Below, piece by piece: positions 1 to 54,799 of a stretch of DNA of 64,000 nt (positions are counted from its first letter, which is position 1; each line of letters begins with the position of its first letter). The notes under the pieces are model-generated. The model was not told where the DNA came from. It was given only the letters and a program-made list of their open reading frames with translations, and ran no database searches. Both the position numbers and the translations under genes were made by a program. Source of the DNA: Methyloligella halotolerans (GTDB lineage Bacteria > Pseudomonadota > Alphaproteobacteria > Rhizobiales > Methyloligellaceae); assembly GCF_001708935.1 (NCBI RefSeq), contig NZ_MASI01000001.1, positions 186,001-250,000 on the forward strand, read 5' to 3'.

Positions 1-491
1 CAGAGCCGTTTCAACCGGTCCAGCGCGCCTTGTAGGATGTAGGCGGCGGCCATGCGGTCGACGACCTCGCCGCGGCGCTTGCGGCTGGCGTCCGCCTCGA
101 TGAGATGGCGTTCGACCGCAGCGGTGGAGAGGCGTTCGTCCCAGAACACGATGGGAAGCGTCATGTGCTGGCTCAAATTGCGGGCAAAGGCGCGGGTCGA
201 CTGAGCGCGCGGACCTTCGGTGCCGTCCATGTTGACGGGAAGCCCCAGCACGATCGCGCCGACGCCGAGCTCCTGGATCGTCTTCAGGATCGGCTGGATG
301 TCGGCGGTGAACTTCGTACGCTTCACGGTCTCGACGGGAGTCGCGATGGATCGGCTGACGTCGGAGACCGCCACGCCGATGGTCTTGGTGCCGAGATCGA
401 GGCCGAGCAGACGCGCATCTCGGGTAAGCTTTGCCGGCAGATCCTGAATCTCCAGAACACTCGCCGCCGTGCCGGGTTGTGACCTTGTCAA
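1..491 (-). CDS. ruvX: RuvX/YqgF-family RNase H-like protein, 3' end cut by window edge
   Basis: YqgF/RuvX proteins are small RNase H-fold nucleases implicated in Holliday-junction resolution and 16S rRNA maturation. The family's first strand GLDLGTKTIGVAVSD is visible, with the first catalytic Asp at about residue 32. Further on come VLGLPVNMDG and FWDERLST, the typical second half of the fold. The frame is open to base 1, so the last residues lie outside the window. No ATG or GTG precedes the conserved core in frame. The best start is TTG at 489-491, with AGGAAAG about 8 bases upstream, giving about 163 visible codons; the family norm is 140-160. It is divergent from the hydrolase at 566, with a 74-base gap holding both promoters. 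Confidence 0.9.
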   Translation of the reverse strand, partial: MTRSQPGTAASVLEIQDLPAKLTRDARLLGLDLGTKTIGVAVSDVSRSIATPVETVKRTKFTADIQPILKTIQELGVGAIVLGLPVNMDGTEGPRAQSTRAFARNLSQHMTLPIVFWDERLSTAAVERHLIEADASRKRRGEVVDRMAAAYILQGALDRLKRL

Positions 492-565
492 CGCGTTACG
501 CTTTCCTATAGTCGCGGCGAAGCGTGACGCCCCGCAGACCGCACAAGATTTCAGAAGAGGCTTTC

Positions 566-1267
566 ATGCAGATTACCTGGTACGGCCATTCCTGCTTCCG
601 CATCGATCTCGACGAGAAGCGCATCCTGATCGATCCCTTCCTCACCGGGAACAGCGTCTTCGAGGAAGCCGGCATCCCCGTACACGAGGTGGCCAAGGAT
701 ATCACGCATCTGGTGCTGACCCACGGTCATGACGACCACACGGGCGACACGGTGTCCATCCTGAAGGAAAGCGACGCGACGCTGGTCGCAACGTTCGAGC
801 TTGCCAGCTATCTGCAGGGGCAGGGCGTCGAGAAAGCGGAATATATGAACACCGGCGGGACCCTGGATCTCGGCGAGTTCACGATCACCTATGTCCCGGC
901 CTTCCATTCGTCTTCCACCATGGTGGATGGGAAGCCGGTCTATCTGGGGCCGGCCTGCGGCGTTGTCATCAAGCCGAAGGACGGCAAGTGCGTCTACCAC
1001 ATGGGCGACACGGACATCTTCTCCGACATGGGGTTGATCAACGAGATGCATAAGCCTGCAATCGGTATGGTGCCCATCGGCGACCGGTTCACCATGGGCG
1101 CGAAATCGGCAGCGCTGGCCTGCAAGCGGTTCTTCGATTTCGAGACGGTTCTTCCGTGTCACTACAAGACCTTCCCGATCATCGATCAGTCGGCGGATCC
1201 GTTCATCGCGGAGATGGTGGGTGAAAACGTCGTGGTGCCGAAGGTGGGCGAGCCTCAGAGCTTCTAA
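566..1267 (+). CDS. UPF0173 metal-dependent hydrolase (metallo-beta-lactamase fold)
   Basis: This 233-residue protein matches the UPF0173/YtkL family of small metallo-beta-lactamase-fold hydrolases. The metal-binding HGHDDH motif is at residues 53-58, preceded by the family opening MQITWYGHSCFRI. Later ligands are in the FHSSS and HMGDTDIF segments and in the terminal CHYKTFP segment. The ATG at 566 follows AGAAGAGG at a suitable distance; the frame is also open upstream, but residues before this Met do not belong to the family. No signal peptide is present, so it is probably cytoplasmic. The substrate is unknown. It precedes gatC by about 145 bases and is divergent from ruvX. Confidence 0.9.
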   Translation: MQITWYGHSCFRIDLDEKRILIDPFLTGNSVFEEAGIPVHEVAKDITHLVLTHGHDDHTGDTVSILKESDATLVATFELASYLQGQGVEKAEYMNTGGTLDLGEFTITYVPAFHSSSTMVDGKPVYLGPACGVVIKPKDGKCVYHMGDTDIFSDMGLINEMHKPAIGMVPIGDRFTMGAKSAALACKRFFDFETVLPCHYKTFPIIDQSADPFIAEMVGENVVVPKVGEPQSF

Positions 1268-29023: not shown

Positions 29024-30187
29024 TCAGGCGTCGCCTCCGACATAGCGCCTTGCGGCGCGGCGGCAGAGATTGGTGAGGATCTCGTAGTTCACGGTCTGGG
29101 CCTGCTCGGCGATCGCTTCGATGGGCTGACGGGGGCCGATGATCTGCACCATGGCGCCGCGGCTCGCGTATTCGTCGGGGATGTCCGTAACGTCCACGGT
29201 AATGAGGTCCATGGAGATGCGGCCCATGACCGGGGCCGGGTGGGGCCCGAGATAGACGCTCAAGGGCGGCTTGCCGTCGCCCGCGGACAGGAGCCAGGAG
29301 ATGCCGTCCGCGTAGCCGGCGGCGATCGTGGCGATGCGTCTCGGGGCGTCGATGTGGCGGGTGGCACCGTAGCCGATCGTGTCGCCGGCGGGCGACGTGC
29401 GGAGCTGGAGGATCCGGCTCTCGAGGGTCACGACGTTCTCGAAGCGGTGGTCGTTCCCGGCCGCCGGCTGACCGCCGTAGAGCGCGATGCCGGGGCGCAC
29501 CTGGTTGAAATGATAGCTTTCGCCCAGCATCACGCCGCCCGAATTGGCGAGGCTCGCGGGCACATCGGGGAGGCGGCGGCGAAGCGCATCGAACCGGTCC
29601 CGCTGGGCCTGGTTCTTCGGGTGCTCCGGCGTATCGGAGCAGGCGAGGTGGCTCATCACAAGGCTGAGCTCGAAAGACTCGAGCAGTGCGCGATCGCTTG
29701 CCACAGCGTCGAGCTCCGCTTCCGGCAGGCCGAGGCGGTTCATGCCACTATCGAGATGGAGACCTGCGGGCAGTCGCTTGCCCGCCATCCTGCAATGGGC
29801 CGCCCATTCGCGAATCTCATCGATGCTGTTCAGCACAGGGCGGACCTCGAGGTCCGCGAAAAGGTCAGCAGTGCGCGGCATCAGCCCGTCGAAGGCATAG
29901 ATCGTCGCCTCTGGAAGGAGGGCCCGCAAGCTACGACCTTCCGCGAGGGTCGCGACATAGAAGGTGCGGCAGCCTTCGCGCCAGAGCACCGGCGCCACTT
30001 TGGCTGCGCCGAGGCCATAAGCGTCCGCCTTCACGACGGCGGCGCATTCGGCCGGCGCGGCCCGCTCCCGGAGGTGGCGGTAGTTGGAGGCCAGGGCGTC
30101 CAGATCGATGGTGACGAGGCCGGGGGCGCCGGCGGGAGCATCTGAACTTGAAGTCTTCGGCGAAGCGGCCTCGGCCTCTTCGCTCAC
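29024..30187 (-). CDS. alr: alanine racemase
   Basis: Alr is a PLP enzyme making D-alanine for peptidoglycan. The PLP-lysine motif is VVKADAYGLGAAKV. HLDSGMNRLGLPEAE, SLANSGGVML and VRPGIALYGG define the barrel, and the C-terminal domain has IGYGATRHIDAPRRIATIAAGYADG and PVMGRISMDLITVDVTD. The GTG at 30187 overlaps the dnaB stop as GTGA and gives 387 residues, close to family size; longer in-frame extensions upstream are out of family. Translational coupling with dnaB is likely. Confidence 0.95.
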   Translation of the reverse strand: MSEEAEAASPKTSSSDAPAGAPGLVTIDLDALASNYRHLRERAAPAECAAVVKADAYGLGAAKVAPVLWREGCRTFYVATLAEGRSLRALLPEATIYAFDGLMPRTADLFADLEVRPVLNSIDEIREWAAHCRMAGKRLPAGLHLDSGMNRLGLPEAELDAVASDRALLESFELSLVMSHLACSDTPEHPKNQAQRDRFDALRRRLPDVPASLANSGGVMLGESYHFNQVRPGIALYGGQPAAGNDHRFENVVTLESRILQLRTSPAGDTIGYGATRHIDAPRRIATIAAGYADGISWLLSAGDGKPPLSVYLGPHPAPVMGRISMDLITVDVTDIPDEYASRGAMVQIIGPRQPIEAIAEQAQTVNYEILTNLCRRAARRYVGGDA

Positions 30188-31671
30188 TCGAAGCGCTCCG
30201 GCAGCCGCTCGTCGCCCGCCAGGTTGCTGAACTTCGTGAACTCCGGATTGAACTGGAGGGTCACCGTGCCCGTCGGGCCATGGCGCTGCTTGCCGATGAT
30301 CAGATCGGCCTTGCCCATCACCATTTCCATCTCGTCTTGCCACTGGCGGTGCTCTTCGGTTCCCTCACGCGGTTGGCGCCGTTCCAGATAGTATTCCTCA
30401 CGGAACACGAACAACACCACGTCGGCATCCTGCTCGATGGAGCCGGATTCTCGAAGATCAGCCAATTGCGGCCGTTTGTCGTCACGCTGCTCGACCTGAC
30501 GCGAAAGCTGGGACAGGGCAAGGACAGGAACCTCGAGCTCCTTGGCCAGAGCCTTCAGGCCCGTCGTGATCTCGGTGATCTCCTGGACGCGGCCTTCGGA
30601 AGCGCGGCGGGACGAGCCGGCAAGAAGCTGAAGGTAGTCGACCACCAGGAAGCCGAGACCCCGCTGGCGCTTCAGACGGCGGGCGCGGGCGGCGAGCTGG
30701 GCCACGGTGATGCCGCCGGTCTGGTCGATATAAAGCGGCAGGTTCTGGAGCTCCTGGGCGACCTCGACGATCCGGTCGAACTCGTCGGGATCGATGCGGC
30801 CGCGGCGGATGCGCTCCGAAGAGAGCGACGCCTGCTCGGAGATGATACGGGTGGCGAGCTGCTCCGACGACATTTCGAGAGAGAAGAAGCCGACAACGGC
30901 GCCGTCCAGATCCTTGCCGGTATTGGGGTCCGTTCGATGGCTCTTGGCCACGTGATAGGCGATGTTGGTCGCCAGCGCCGTCTTCCCCATGGAGGGACGG
31001 CCGGCGAGGATGATCAGATCGGAGGCCTGGAGACCGCCCATCTTCCGGTCCACGTCGGCCAAGCCGGTCGCGATCCCCGAAAGCCCGCCGTCGCGGGAAT
31101 AGGCGTTGGCCGCCATGTCGATGGCGTCGGTCAGCGCGGCGGAGAAGGGCGAGAAGCCCTGACCGTATTTGCCGGTCTCGGCCAGTTCGTAGAGCTGCTG
31201 CTCGGCGAACTCGATCTGGGTCGAAGGCGGCGCATCGATAGGCGAATCGTAGGCCGTGTTGACCAGGATCTCGCCCACCTGGATCAGCTCCCGGCGGATG
31301 GCGAGATCGTAGATGGTGCGGCCGTAATCTTCGGCGTTGATGATGGTGGTCGCGTTGGCGGCGAGCCGGCCCAGATATTGCGGGACGGTCATGTCGCCGG
31401 CCGGTTCTTCGTTCTGGAAGAAGGTCTTGAGGGTGATCGGCGTGGCGCGCTTGCCGCCAAAGATCAGCTTGGCGGCGGCGCTGTAGATGCGGCCGTGCAG
31501 CGGCTCGAAGAAATGCGTCTCCTTCAGGAAGCTCGATACGCGGTCGCACGCTTCGTTGTTGACCAGGATGGCTCCGAGAAGCGCTTGTTCGGCCTCGATA
31601 TTATGCGGCAGCTCGCGGAATTCAGGCGAATCGTCGGCCGGCTGCCGGGGCAGAATCAGTGCGTTGCTCAT
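30184..31671 (-). CDS. dnaB: replicative DNA helicase DnaB
   Basis: DnaB is the hexameric replicative helicase. The N-terminal primase-interacting domain starts ELPHNIEAEQALLGAILVNN, followed by the linker and RecA-like motor with Walker A ILAGRPSMGKTALATNIA and Walker B GFLVVDYLQLLAG. The loop LSQLSRQVEQRDDKRPQLADL and the ESGSIEQDADVV motif are typical. Length 495 is normal. No intein is present. It is the first gene of a tight dnaB-alr-radA set on the minus strand. Confidence 0.98.
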   Translation of the reverse strand: MSNALILPRQPADDSPEFRELPHNIEAEQALLGAILVNNEACDRVSSFLKETHFFEPLHGRIYSAAAKLIFGGKRATPITLKTFFQNEEPAGDMTVPQYLGRLAANATTIINAEDYGRTIYDLAIRRELIQVGEILVNTAYDSPIDAPPSTQIEFAEQQLYELAETGKYGQGFSPFSAALTDAIDMAANAYSRDGGLSGIATGLADVDRKMGGLQASDLIILAGRPSMGKTALATNIAYHVAKSHRTDPNTGKDLDGAVVGFFSLEMSSEQLATRIISEQASLSSERIRRGRIDPDEFDRIVEVAQELQNLPLYIDQTGGITVAQLAARARRLKRQRGLGFLVVDYLQLLAGSSRRASEGRVQEITEITTGLKALAKELEVPVLALSQLSRQVEQRDDKRPQLADLRESGSIEQDADVVLFVFREEYYLERRQPREGTEEHRQWQDEMEMVMGKADLIIGKQRHGPTGTVTLQFNPEFTKFSNLAGDERLPERFE

Positions 31672-52874: not shown

Positions 52875-52926
52875 CCCATATCCGTATATTTTCCATAATA
52901 TACCTTATGCGAATTTCGGATATGGG
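52875..52926. repeat. nested AT-rich inverted repeat between convergent genes
   Basis: Outer perfect arms CCCATATCCG (52875-52884) and CGGATATGGG (52917-52926) enclose an inner stem GTATATT (52884-52890)/AATATAC (52897-52903). It lies in the 229-base gap between pepA and the DnaB-like gene. The AT-rich composition stands out. Possible roles are a bidirectional terminator, a cruciform protein site or a small RNA; none is shown. Confidence 0.55.
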
Positions 52927-53028
52927 CGGATTTGCAGGGGCCGGCGCGGAAATCGCTTGCAGTTATCCTCTTCCCCTGCAGCGCTAACCTCTTCCTCCGA
53001 AACGATAAATCAGTGCCGTGCCACCACT

Positions 53029-53742
53029 CTATGGTGACGGGCTGAGCTGCACCTTCCCGTTCTGCAGGAAGCACGACTTGTCGAACAGCGCGACGTCGAG
53101 TGCGTTGGGCAGACGCACATCCCTGATGTCAGGACATGGTTTGCGTTCGGCGTCGTAGCGCCTGTCGATCTGCGACAGGCAGATCACGACGTGCCCTCGC
53201 TCCTCTGCGTAGACCTTCAGCGTTCGCACCTGTTCTGCCAGTGGCGGCGTCTCGCGGCGCTGATCGAGGAGCTGGAGATAGTCGACCAAGACCAGCGTGC
53301 CTCTGGGCGCATCCTCGAGCCTTCCGACGATGTGAGCGGCCGTTATGGCGTCGGAGCAATCGAGGTTCAGAAGGCCGTCGAAGCGGCCGGTATCGAGGCC
53401 CAGATCGCGGAAGCGGGCGGCGAGGGTCTCCTCCGTCTCCTCGAGGCTGAAGACCCAACTCGGCGTGCCTTGTCTTATCGCCTCCGCGACAATCTCCAAG
53501 CCGAGCAGCGTCTTGCCCTGGCCCGGCCGTGCGCCGAGCAGCATCAGCTCGCCGGGCCGCAGTTTTGGAAAGAGACGCGTCGCCGGGCCGGCGTCCGCAT
53601 GCTTGGCGGCGAGCAGGCTCCATCGGCTGTAGCCTTCCTGCCGGGCGACGCGATCGAGGGCTGTGTGGAGCGGGATGTTCGCCTGGCGGGCGAGCTGCTT
53701 TGCCTGGTGCTTGAGACGGTAAATGGGCGCGGAAAGCTTCAT
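53029..53742 (-). CDS. stand-alone DnaB/RecA-fold ATPase
   Basis: The 237-residue product has the DnaB motor core: Walker A GARPGQGKTLLGLEIVAE (about residues 70-87), the SLEETEE segment, Walker B TLVLVDYLQLLDQR and the LSQIDRRYD loop. It lacks the DnaB N-terminal primase-binding domain. Instead the first 48 residues form an Arg/Lys/Leu-rich helical part containing IPLHTALDRVARQEGYSRWS. From memory, this resembles the 'sHseALelVAr..Gf..W' helical module found in some small alphaproteobacterial proteins. AGGAGG lies close before the ATG at 53742. It is divergent from mazG and convergent with pepA. The role is unknown; a helicase accessory or regulatory ATPase is possible. Confidence 0.78.
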   Translation of the reverse strand: MKLSAPIYRLKHQAKQLARQANIPLHTALDRVARQEGYSRWSLLAAKHADAGPATRLFPKLRPGELMLLGARPGQGKTLLGLEIVAEAIRQGTPSWVFSLEETEETLAARFRDLGLDTGRFDGLLNLDCSDAITAAHIVGRLEDAPRGTLVLVDYLQLLDQRRETPPLAEQVRTLKVYAEERGHVVICLSQIDRRYDAERKPCPDIRDVRLPNALDVALFDKSCFLQNGKVQLSPSP

Positions 53743-53959
53743 CGATAACCTCCTGAGGCGAGCAGGATTTCGCAGCCCCTCCTTATGCGCATGCTCGAAC
53801 AGTCGGTTCGGATGATCGGTCGCCCTGTATGGCAGATACTTTCCCGAGTGGAGGGGGGAGGCTTGGGCCGCGCCTGACCGCTATGATAGGCCGAGTCGCG
53901 CAAGCTTGAGAATTGCGGAGCGCCCTTCCCGACCACCTCATCACGGACCGGTATCCTGA

Positions 53960-54799
53960 ATGGCCAACGAGACAGAGTTCGGAAAAGACGCCGACGGCCG
54001 CTACACGCTGGACGCGCTGCTCGCCATCATGCGGCGCTTGCGGGATCCGGAGACCGGCTGCCCGTGGGACGCCAAGCAGGATTTTTCCTCCATCGCGCCC
54101 TACACCGTCGAGGAAGCCTACGAGGTGGCAGACGCCATCGCGCGGGACGATCGTGCGGCTCTAAAGGACGAGCTTGGCGACCTGCTCTTTCAGGTCGTCT
54201 ACCACGCGCAGATGGCTGACGAGGAAGGCGCCTTCGCGTTCGACGATGTGGTGGACGCCATTGCCGCGAAAATGGTTCGTCGGCATCCTCACGTGTTCGA
54301 CGATCCCAGCCTACGCGACAGCTTCTTGGGCTCCGGGCGCTGGGACGAGATCAAGGCGCAGGAGAAAGAGGCGCGTGGAGAGCAGGGCGCCCCCTCCTCT
54401 CTTCTGGACGATGTGCCCCTCCCCCTCCCCGCCCTCTCCCGTGCGGTGAAGCTGCAGAAGCGGGCGGCCCGGGTGGGTTTCGATTGGCCCGAGATGGCGC
54501 CCGTGTTCGACAAGGCGGAGGAGGAGTTCGGCGAGCTGAAGGAAGCGATCCAGTCCGGCGACCAGGCGCATGTCGAGGAGGAGTTCGGTGATCTGCTCTT
54601 CGTGATGGCGAACCTGTCGCGCCATCTCAAGATCGATCCGGAGGCGGCACTGCGGGGCGCCAACGAGAAGTTCCGCCGGCGCTTCCAAGCCATCGAACAG
54701 GCGCTGATGGCGGACGGCAAGCCCATGGAAGACGCTACGCTGAAAGAAATGGACGCGCTCTGGGACGCGGCGAAGCGTAAGGAGAAAGCGGGCGGCTGA
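53960..54799 (+). CDS. mazG: nucleoside triphosphate pyrophosphohydrolase MazG
   Basis: MazG hydrolyses non-canonical or excess NTPs to NMP and pyrophosphate. Two MazG domains are visible. The first has CPWDAKQDFSSIAPYTVEEA followed by DELGDLLFQVVYHAQMADEE; the second has EEEFGDLLFVMANLSRHLKI and GANEKFRRRF, each with the ExxD-type metal site. Length is 279, within the family range. The ATG at 53960 follows GGACCGG; a longer in-frame option was not supported. Confidence 0.95.
   Translation: MANETEFGKDADGRYTLDALLAIMRRLRDPETGCPWDAKQDFSSIAPYTVEEAYEVADAIARDDRAALKDELGDLLFQVVYHAQMADEEGAFAFDDVVDAIAAKMVRRHPHVFDDPSLRDSFLGSGRWDEIKAQEKEARGEQGAPSSLLDDVPLPLPALSRAVKLQKRAARVGFDWPEMAPVFDKAEEEFGELKEAIQSGDQAHVEEEFGDLLFVMANLSRHLKIDPEAALRGANEKFRRRFQAIEQALMADGKPMEDATLKEMDALWDAAKRKEKAGG

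Follow-up and report, generated by a model that had tools for sequence, protein, structure and literature searches.

The DNA analysed here, a stretch of 64,000 nucleotides from Methyloligella halotolerans (the window), carries at 53742-53029 on the reverse strand an intact open reading frame that starts with ATG, has GGAGG just upstream and encodes 237 amino acids. It is preceded by a structured leader RNA, the main feature of the locus, which falls outside 53029-53742 and went unnoticed in the first-pass annotation. The gene mazG lies divergently at 53960-54799 on the forward strand. The features are listed below, with the evidence for each.

53029..53742, reverse strand: coding sequence of 237 amino acids, NF004629/PRK05973 family ('DNA helicase'); open reading frame and profile match.
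53593..53742, reverse strand: N-terminal module (N-module), residues 1-50, three helices with a basic helix 1; AlphaFold2 and alignment.
53032..53583, reverse strand: RecA-type ATPase core of DnaB_C fold, residues 54-237; Pfam, alignment and structure comparison.
53509..53535, reverse strand: Walker A GARPGQGKT, residues 70-78; sequence and conservation.
53266..53295, reverse strand: Walker B LVLVDYLQLL, residues 150-159; sequence and conservation.
53743..53876, reverse strand: structured leader RNA of about 134 nt immediately before the ATG, its 5' end placed by inference; match to the leader model R1 and covariation.
53821..53876, reverse strand: 5' domain of the leader, with pseudoknot P0 and helices P1, P1b and P2; alignment and covariation.
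53850..53855, reverse strand: CCCUCC loop that may form a kissing contact with GGAGGG at 53777-53782; alignment.
53777..53782, reverse strand: GGAGGG in the P5 loop, a second Shine-Dalgarno-like motif away from the start codon; alignment.
53749..53754, reverse strand: Shine-Dalgarno AGGAGG in the 3' strand of helix P3; alignment.
52889..52913, forward strand: dif-like Xer site between pepA and mazG, with the sequence TTTTCCATAATATACCTTATGCGAA, 115 nt beyond the end of the coding sequence.

The window protein is a full-length member of NF004629 (PRK05973.1), scoring 343.7 bits against a cut-off of 156 over positions 1-234 of 237. The fusion of the N-module with the core is not new: it defines an already known, full-length but uncharacterised NCBIfam family, whose model does not include the leader and whose 'helicase' label is annotation by likeness only. 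The term PRK05973 was absent from the literature searched, where we found no described function for the family. A defence system was considered and rejected, the PADLOC matches being weak (E 0.003 and 0.006). A Pfam search detected DnaB_C (PF03796, 66.6 bits) and no DnaB N-domain (PF00772), in agreement with the first-pass description of a DnaB-like ATPase devoid of the helicase N-domain. The replicative DnaB of the window (30184-31671, reverse strand) has both domains. The description of the present protein as a second, specialised one beside DnaB is also supported; its N-module is distinct and its family is conserved elsewhere.

Both Walker motifs are kept, as first annotated, and K77, T78 and D154 are invariant across an alignment of 48 members, which leaves out the truncated L115. 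AlphaFold2 modelled the whole protein with a pLDDT of 85.4 and a pTM of 0.76, and the core (residues 54-237) superposes on the ATPase domain of G40P DnaB (3bh0; Z 20.4, rmsd 2.6, 183 residues aligned). With DnaB proteins (TIGR00665; Bst, E. coli, G40P) it shares the RecA core, Walker A and B and the SQ motif; unlike the replicative helicase, it has neither the N-domain nor the KQRxGP motif, and it scores only 62.7 bits against the DnaB equivalog cut-off of 385.25. It also stays below the cut-offs for KaiC (NF006799, 20.6 against 408) and RadA (TIGR00416, 14.3 against 403.05), while reaching the cut-off of the broad Pfam domain PF06745 (29.6 against 26.6). The sequence alignment of the core with the DnaB of the window covers residues 205-412 of the latter and ends before H4 and IGKQRHGP. 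There is no invariant Arg past R210 in the 48 members, K222 being nearly invariant, and the structural alignment of the core extends to residue 442 of E. coli DnaB. With the motif absent and no such Arg, the Arg finger, which we assume to be the role of KQRxGP, has likely been lost.

Predicting the structure of residues 1-50, as the first-pass annotation had proposed, confirmed a different N-terminal helical module: AlphaFold2 places helices at 5-21, 25-36 and 41-50 (pLDDT 80.6 when modelled alone), and IPLHTALDRVARQEGYSRWS sits within this three-helix unit. The first helix is basic, K11 and R19 being invariant in 34 rows and R12 nearly so. Residues 7-51 weakly resemble positions 8-57 of PF20066 (16.8 bits; gathering cut-off 23.7), and a PF20066-like N-module was found in 31 of the 48 members at E<=0.1. 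The resemblance concerns the N-terminal part of this domain, Glyoxalase_8, the rest of which is absent from the window protein. A structural search with the N-module fold gave no confident match (best E 0.71). A PF20066 protein of the same genome (L035, 1477-2022, forward strand; contig C2) has a related N-terminal module (51.8 bits). Elsewhere, an N-module-like start (L039; G126:C8:60970-61122) matches NF004629 positions 1-51 at 34.8 bits within a 408-aa open frame, with no leader match beside it.

A survey of the fusion, also proposed in the first-pass annotation, retrieved NF004629 above its cut-off in 11 genomes out of an alphaproteobacterial sample of 385. The family also occurs on plasmids, and a scan of genome contigs yielded at least 500 relatives. 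The best 80 of these are nearly all Rhizobiales by title, 46 being Bradyrhizobium or Bradyrhizobiaceae. Among 24 plasmid records matching the window protein, 15 cover 80% or more of the query, including one betaproteobacterial record (Polaromonas pPNAP06), and nine hold the C-terminal 19%. Viral loci gave 78 matches, three almost full length at 44-45% and the others at 25-31%, mostly to the core only; no phage record matches at E<=1e-5. Clustering of neighbours at 92 loci did not reveal an operon partner. The largest cluster (56 loci), presumably LysR-like, consists of regulators of different kinds at scattered places, and the five clusters that follow in size (40 to 27 loci) come almost wholly from Bradyrhizobium, with 26 to 38 loci of this genus plus one or two others each.

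At the window locus, the gene and its leader appear to have been gained. Both are absent from 40 out of 40 sampled relatives (one from the genus, 23 from the family and 16 from the order); with the window's own genome added, 31 out of 41 genomes are at least 90% complete. In six of these 40 that were checked, the neighbour that we call pepA, the dif-like site and mazG stand together without the gene in all six, and the site, which we take to be dif, is identical at 25 out of 25 nt in five and differs by one base in the sixth (L265). Two relatives (L260 and L264) have other ORFs between the dif-like site and mazG, one of them presumably GFA-like; the dif-mazG interval may therefore be an insertion hot spot. 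A gain beside dif is the best reading of the locus, in preference to a loss of gene and leader in all relatives. Relevance of mazG, the divergent neighbour named in the first-pass annotation, is not supported: it is nearby at only one (L047) of 97 other family loci, and its presence here is incidental. In L047, around 9036, a dif-like site lies 85 nt past the stop codon in the window orientation, with mazG further on. A loose dif scan of 98 loci (control: 9 hits in 1,540,595 bases) gave five matches. Three are weak and fall within the leader or across the start codon, which leaves convincing sites at 2 of the 98, the window and L047.

The sequences before the ATG are strikingly similar throughout the family. 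Among 14 selected distant members (the window, nine of the ten other members from the class sample and four of five plasmid loci), mean pairwise identity is 62.3% in the leader and 55.4% in the CDS, versus 22.6% upstream and 21.5% downstream. At the window, R1 matches 53740-53885 with 131.6 bits, the model having been built partly from the window sequence itself. An alignment of 47 leaders (A2) supports P1, P1b, P2, P3, P4 and P5 together with the pseudoknot P0. The leader is conserved and covarying, with the Shine-Dalgarno held in a helix and a fixed place before the start codon. In its commonest form, P3 consists of AACCGACUG paired with YAGGAGGUU, with GA opposite GA in 30 out of 47 rows; P3, P4 and P5 make up the 3' arm. 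L014 retains P4 in a different sequence and register (TTCCGG with CCGGAA), which was counted as broken. Reading the leader as coding sequence was rejected, each of the six frames being stopped in 21 to 37 of the 47 rows.

Covariation was counted over 20 pairs and over all 37, in a structure that was partly selected on the same alignment. The 20 pairs contain 26 doubly changed cells versus 7.1±2.1 in shuffles (0/500), with two-sided changes at eight pairs; the number of pair types shows no excess over shuffles (60/500). Among all 37 pairs, 12 account for 34 doubly changed cells, versus 9.4±2.6 in shuffles (0/500), and shifting the partners lowers pairing from 95.8% to 39-49%. On the protein tree of the 47 members, compensatory changes on the same branch number 16, versus a mean of 1.18 and a maximum of 8 (0/2000) when the same columns are re-paired at random. 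They are spread over P2 (6), P1 (4), P4 (3) and P0, P1b and P3 (one each), with none in P5 or in the kiss between CCCUCC and GGAGGG; the latter is paired in 99.6% of cells but is nearly invariant and so lies outside the reach of covariation. RNAalifold, unaided, recovers P1, P1b, three pairs of P2, P4, P5 and part of P3. The window leader is not more stable than its shuffles (z 0.43). A CGAAC/GTTCG hairpin, considered as a further element, proved weak.

We searched for R1 matches across genomes. The genome of the window contains a single strong copy, at the gene; the next match scores 18.7 bits (E 0.096). In the class sample, 12 out of 385 genomes match at E<=0.01, namely the 11 that bear the gene, all of which helped to build R1, and G194 (32.2 bits). 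In the phylum sample, 28 out of 398 match, 27 of them strongly, four of these 27 being also in the class sample; the remaining match (G572, 24.6 bits) lies inside a long frame of the opposite strand and was taken as chance. Together, 34 distinct genomes have a strong leader, and an ORF with an N-module follows it in all 34; in 33 this ORF is a member of the ATPase family, the exception being G565. The leader is also present at each of the best 80 database loci among the at least 500 relatives (46 not used for R1 and 34 used), where it always ends at or within 3 nt of the last base of the start codon; at one of these loci, L115, the frame behind the leader is just 154 aa long. It occurs in 8 out of 8 plasmid or viral loci tested, six of them outside model building, the plasmid test having taken 5 of the 15 well-covered records.

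In G194, which lacks the family gene, the 5' domain (L283, 3384-3467, reverse strand; contig C60) stands without the 3' arm, and with the CCCUCC loop changed, before a different gene, which we take to be phytanoyl-CoA dioxygenase-like. Beyond G194, a model of the 5' domain gave six weak matches (E 0.2-0.96) in 385 genomes and, in 349 genomes, one at E 0.03, which we read as chance.

The G565 locus rules out that the leader is exclusive to the ATPase gene. There, leader and N-module gene together occupy 223-824, forward strand, of L299 (contig C12). The leader (83.9 bits) precedes a 153-aa protein that shares 43% identity with the window protein over its first 60 residues (E 2e-12); beyond these, neither a Walker A nor any Pfam domain was detected. 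At E<=0.001, the genome encodes no other protein related to that of the window. A Tblastn search with this second protein retrieved 28 plasmid records at E<=1e-3 and no viral relatives. Among the 20 matches listed of the 28, eight cover at least 80%, all from Phaeobacter. The second C-terminal domain, of about 90 residues and unrelated to the ATPase core, is found in G565 (L299) and on Phaeobacter plasmids (L301, L303). One record was checked for each of three Phaeobacter species: the leader scores 97.9 bits in P. inhibens and 127.2 in P. gallaeciensis, and the N-module protein of P. piscinae has no leader match and an IS110 transposase gene upstream. In G565 and P. inhibens, P3 is made of other letters, GAGCUUUUUCUG opposite AGGAGAAACUC, with 11 out of 12 standard pairs, including G-U. 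The same C-terminal domain also occurs as a lone short protein, without N-module, on Rhizobium and Mesorhizobium plasmids (L304 and L305, both at 2483-2776), and the leader is absent from both of these records. Since the leader is kept with the N-module when another domain takes the place of the ATPase, it tracks the N-module and neither the ATPase nor the other domain. This domain swap is the strongest hint that the N-module reads the leader.

We consider it probable that this is an accessory gene with a leader under translational control, and that the control is autogenous, exerted through the N-module. The gene, which joins a basic N-module to a solitary RecA core of DnaB type, would move between alphaproteobacterial replicons with its own leader. 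We infer that the leader is transcribed, in which case the RNA would fold into a 5' domain (P0, P1, P1b, P2) and a 3' arm (P3, P4, P5), with P3 pairing the Shine-Dalgarno and the CCCUCC and GGAGGG loops able to dock. Closure of P3 would turn translation off and its opening would turn it on. The likeliest input to such a switch would be the encoded protein, which would bind the leader through its N-module, because leader and N-module stay together in the domain-swap loci. For this autogenous step alone we regard the chances as even, an estimate raised from somewhat below even when the domain-swap loci were found. On a more speculative extension, which we think unlikely, leader and N-module would form a portable self-regulating cassette that travels between replicons and gains different effector domains, and ATP use by the core would remodel the RNA and set the switch.

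The alternative that survives best is a riboswitch for a small molecule or an ion, in which the 5' domain would bind a metabolite and free or hide the Shine-Dalgarno, both N-module proteins answering to that metabolite. The compact pseudoknot-plus-helices architecture of this domain, with its invariant loops, would suit such a sensor, as would its occurrence alone before another gene in G194 and the use of one leader by two protein architectures. However, what these two architectures have in common is the N-module, with no enzyme or transporter pathway that we could recognise, and the matches of the 5' domain model outside G194 were all weak. Because of the domain swap, we lowered our estimate for a riboswitch very slightly, and we hold it to be an unlikely explanation.

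Control of the Shine-Dalgarno by temperature, by a small RNA of anti-Shine-Dalgarno type or by ribosomes standing by at GGAGGG, the second such motif, draws on the two CCUCC and two GGAGG motifs of the leader, with GGAGGG intact in 46 out of 47 rows. The predicted minimum fold of the window leader in fact differs from the alignment-based structure and places CCUCC on GGAGG. When this alternative was examined, pairing both CCUCC with both GGAGG, together with TTGCGA/TCGCAA, 94.2% of cells were paired, yet there was neither covariation above shuffles nor any compensatory event. We rejected it as the main structure and retain it as a possible second state. Such control would also leave the link with the N-module unexplained, and we judge it improbable.

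The conserved stretch might instead act as DNA, as a promoter, an operator or a recombination site. A -10-like TATGAT stands just ahead of it and the window copy adjoins the dif-like site, but base pairs that covary with branch-wise compensation, the retention of pairs around a loop of variable length (2 to 7 nt), placement at the start codon in all 80 best loci and the scarcity of convincing dif-like sites (2 of 98 loci) make this very improbable. A degraded, drifted phage dnaB without conservation, named in the first-pass annotation as what would overturn its reading, is refuted by the alignment of 48 members over their full length with invariant catalytic residues, by the NF004629 match and by the lack of a phage record at E<=1e-5. 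The DnaB-like core and the decayed copies in Sinorhizobium speak for it, but we give it next to no credibility.

Translational control by the N-module, the reading we prefer, has a parallel in the ribosomal protein S15 leaders (PMC4137082), in which, as at this locus, a single gene has its ribosome binding site within a structured leader. The present case differs from autogenous leaders of the S15 type in that the product is a RecA-type ATPase, whose binding to the leader is a proposal. Conserved structured RNAs have been described from the same bacterial group, namely the alphaproteobacterial motifs serC, speF, suhB, ybhL and metA/SAM-II (PMC1273637, in whose main text the words 'helicase' and 'dnaB' do not occur). 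Of these, at least suhB and ybhL are in Rfam, which has no match to the window leader: a scan of 53000-54200 with Rfam 15 (4227 families, E<=10) gave three matches, none on the leader. A further motif, Rhizobiales-1, is listed in PMC2864571 without an Rfam number. We propose that the leader may represent a class of pseudoknotted leader RNAs for which Rfam 15 gave no match, the scan covering the window stretch only. Its interest lies in the tie between a candidate leader and a protein module found on two different proteins. If leader and module bind each other, they would constitute a ready-made portable translation switch, and the pair would offer a first handle on a family for which no described function was found.

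The leader can also outlast its gene. In the two S. medicae plasmids examined (L284 and L285, 2870-3135), the leader is kept (100.8 bits), whereas a deletion has taken the start codon and most of the coding sequence, leaving the C-terminal 45 residues.
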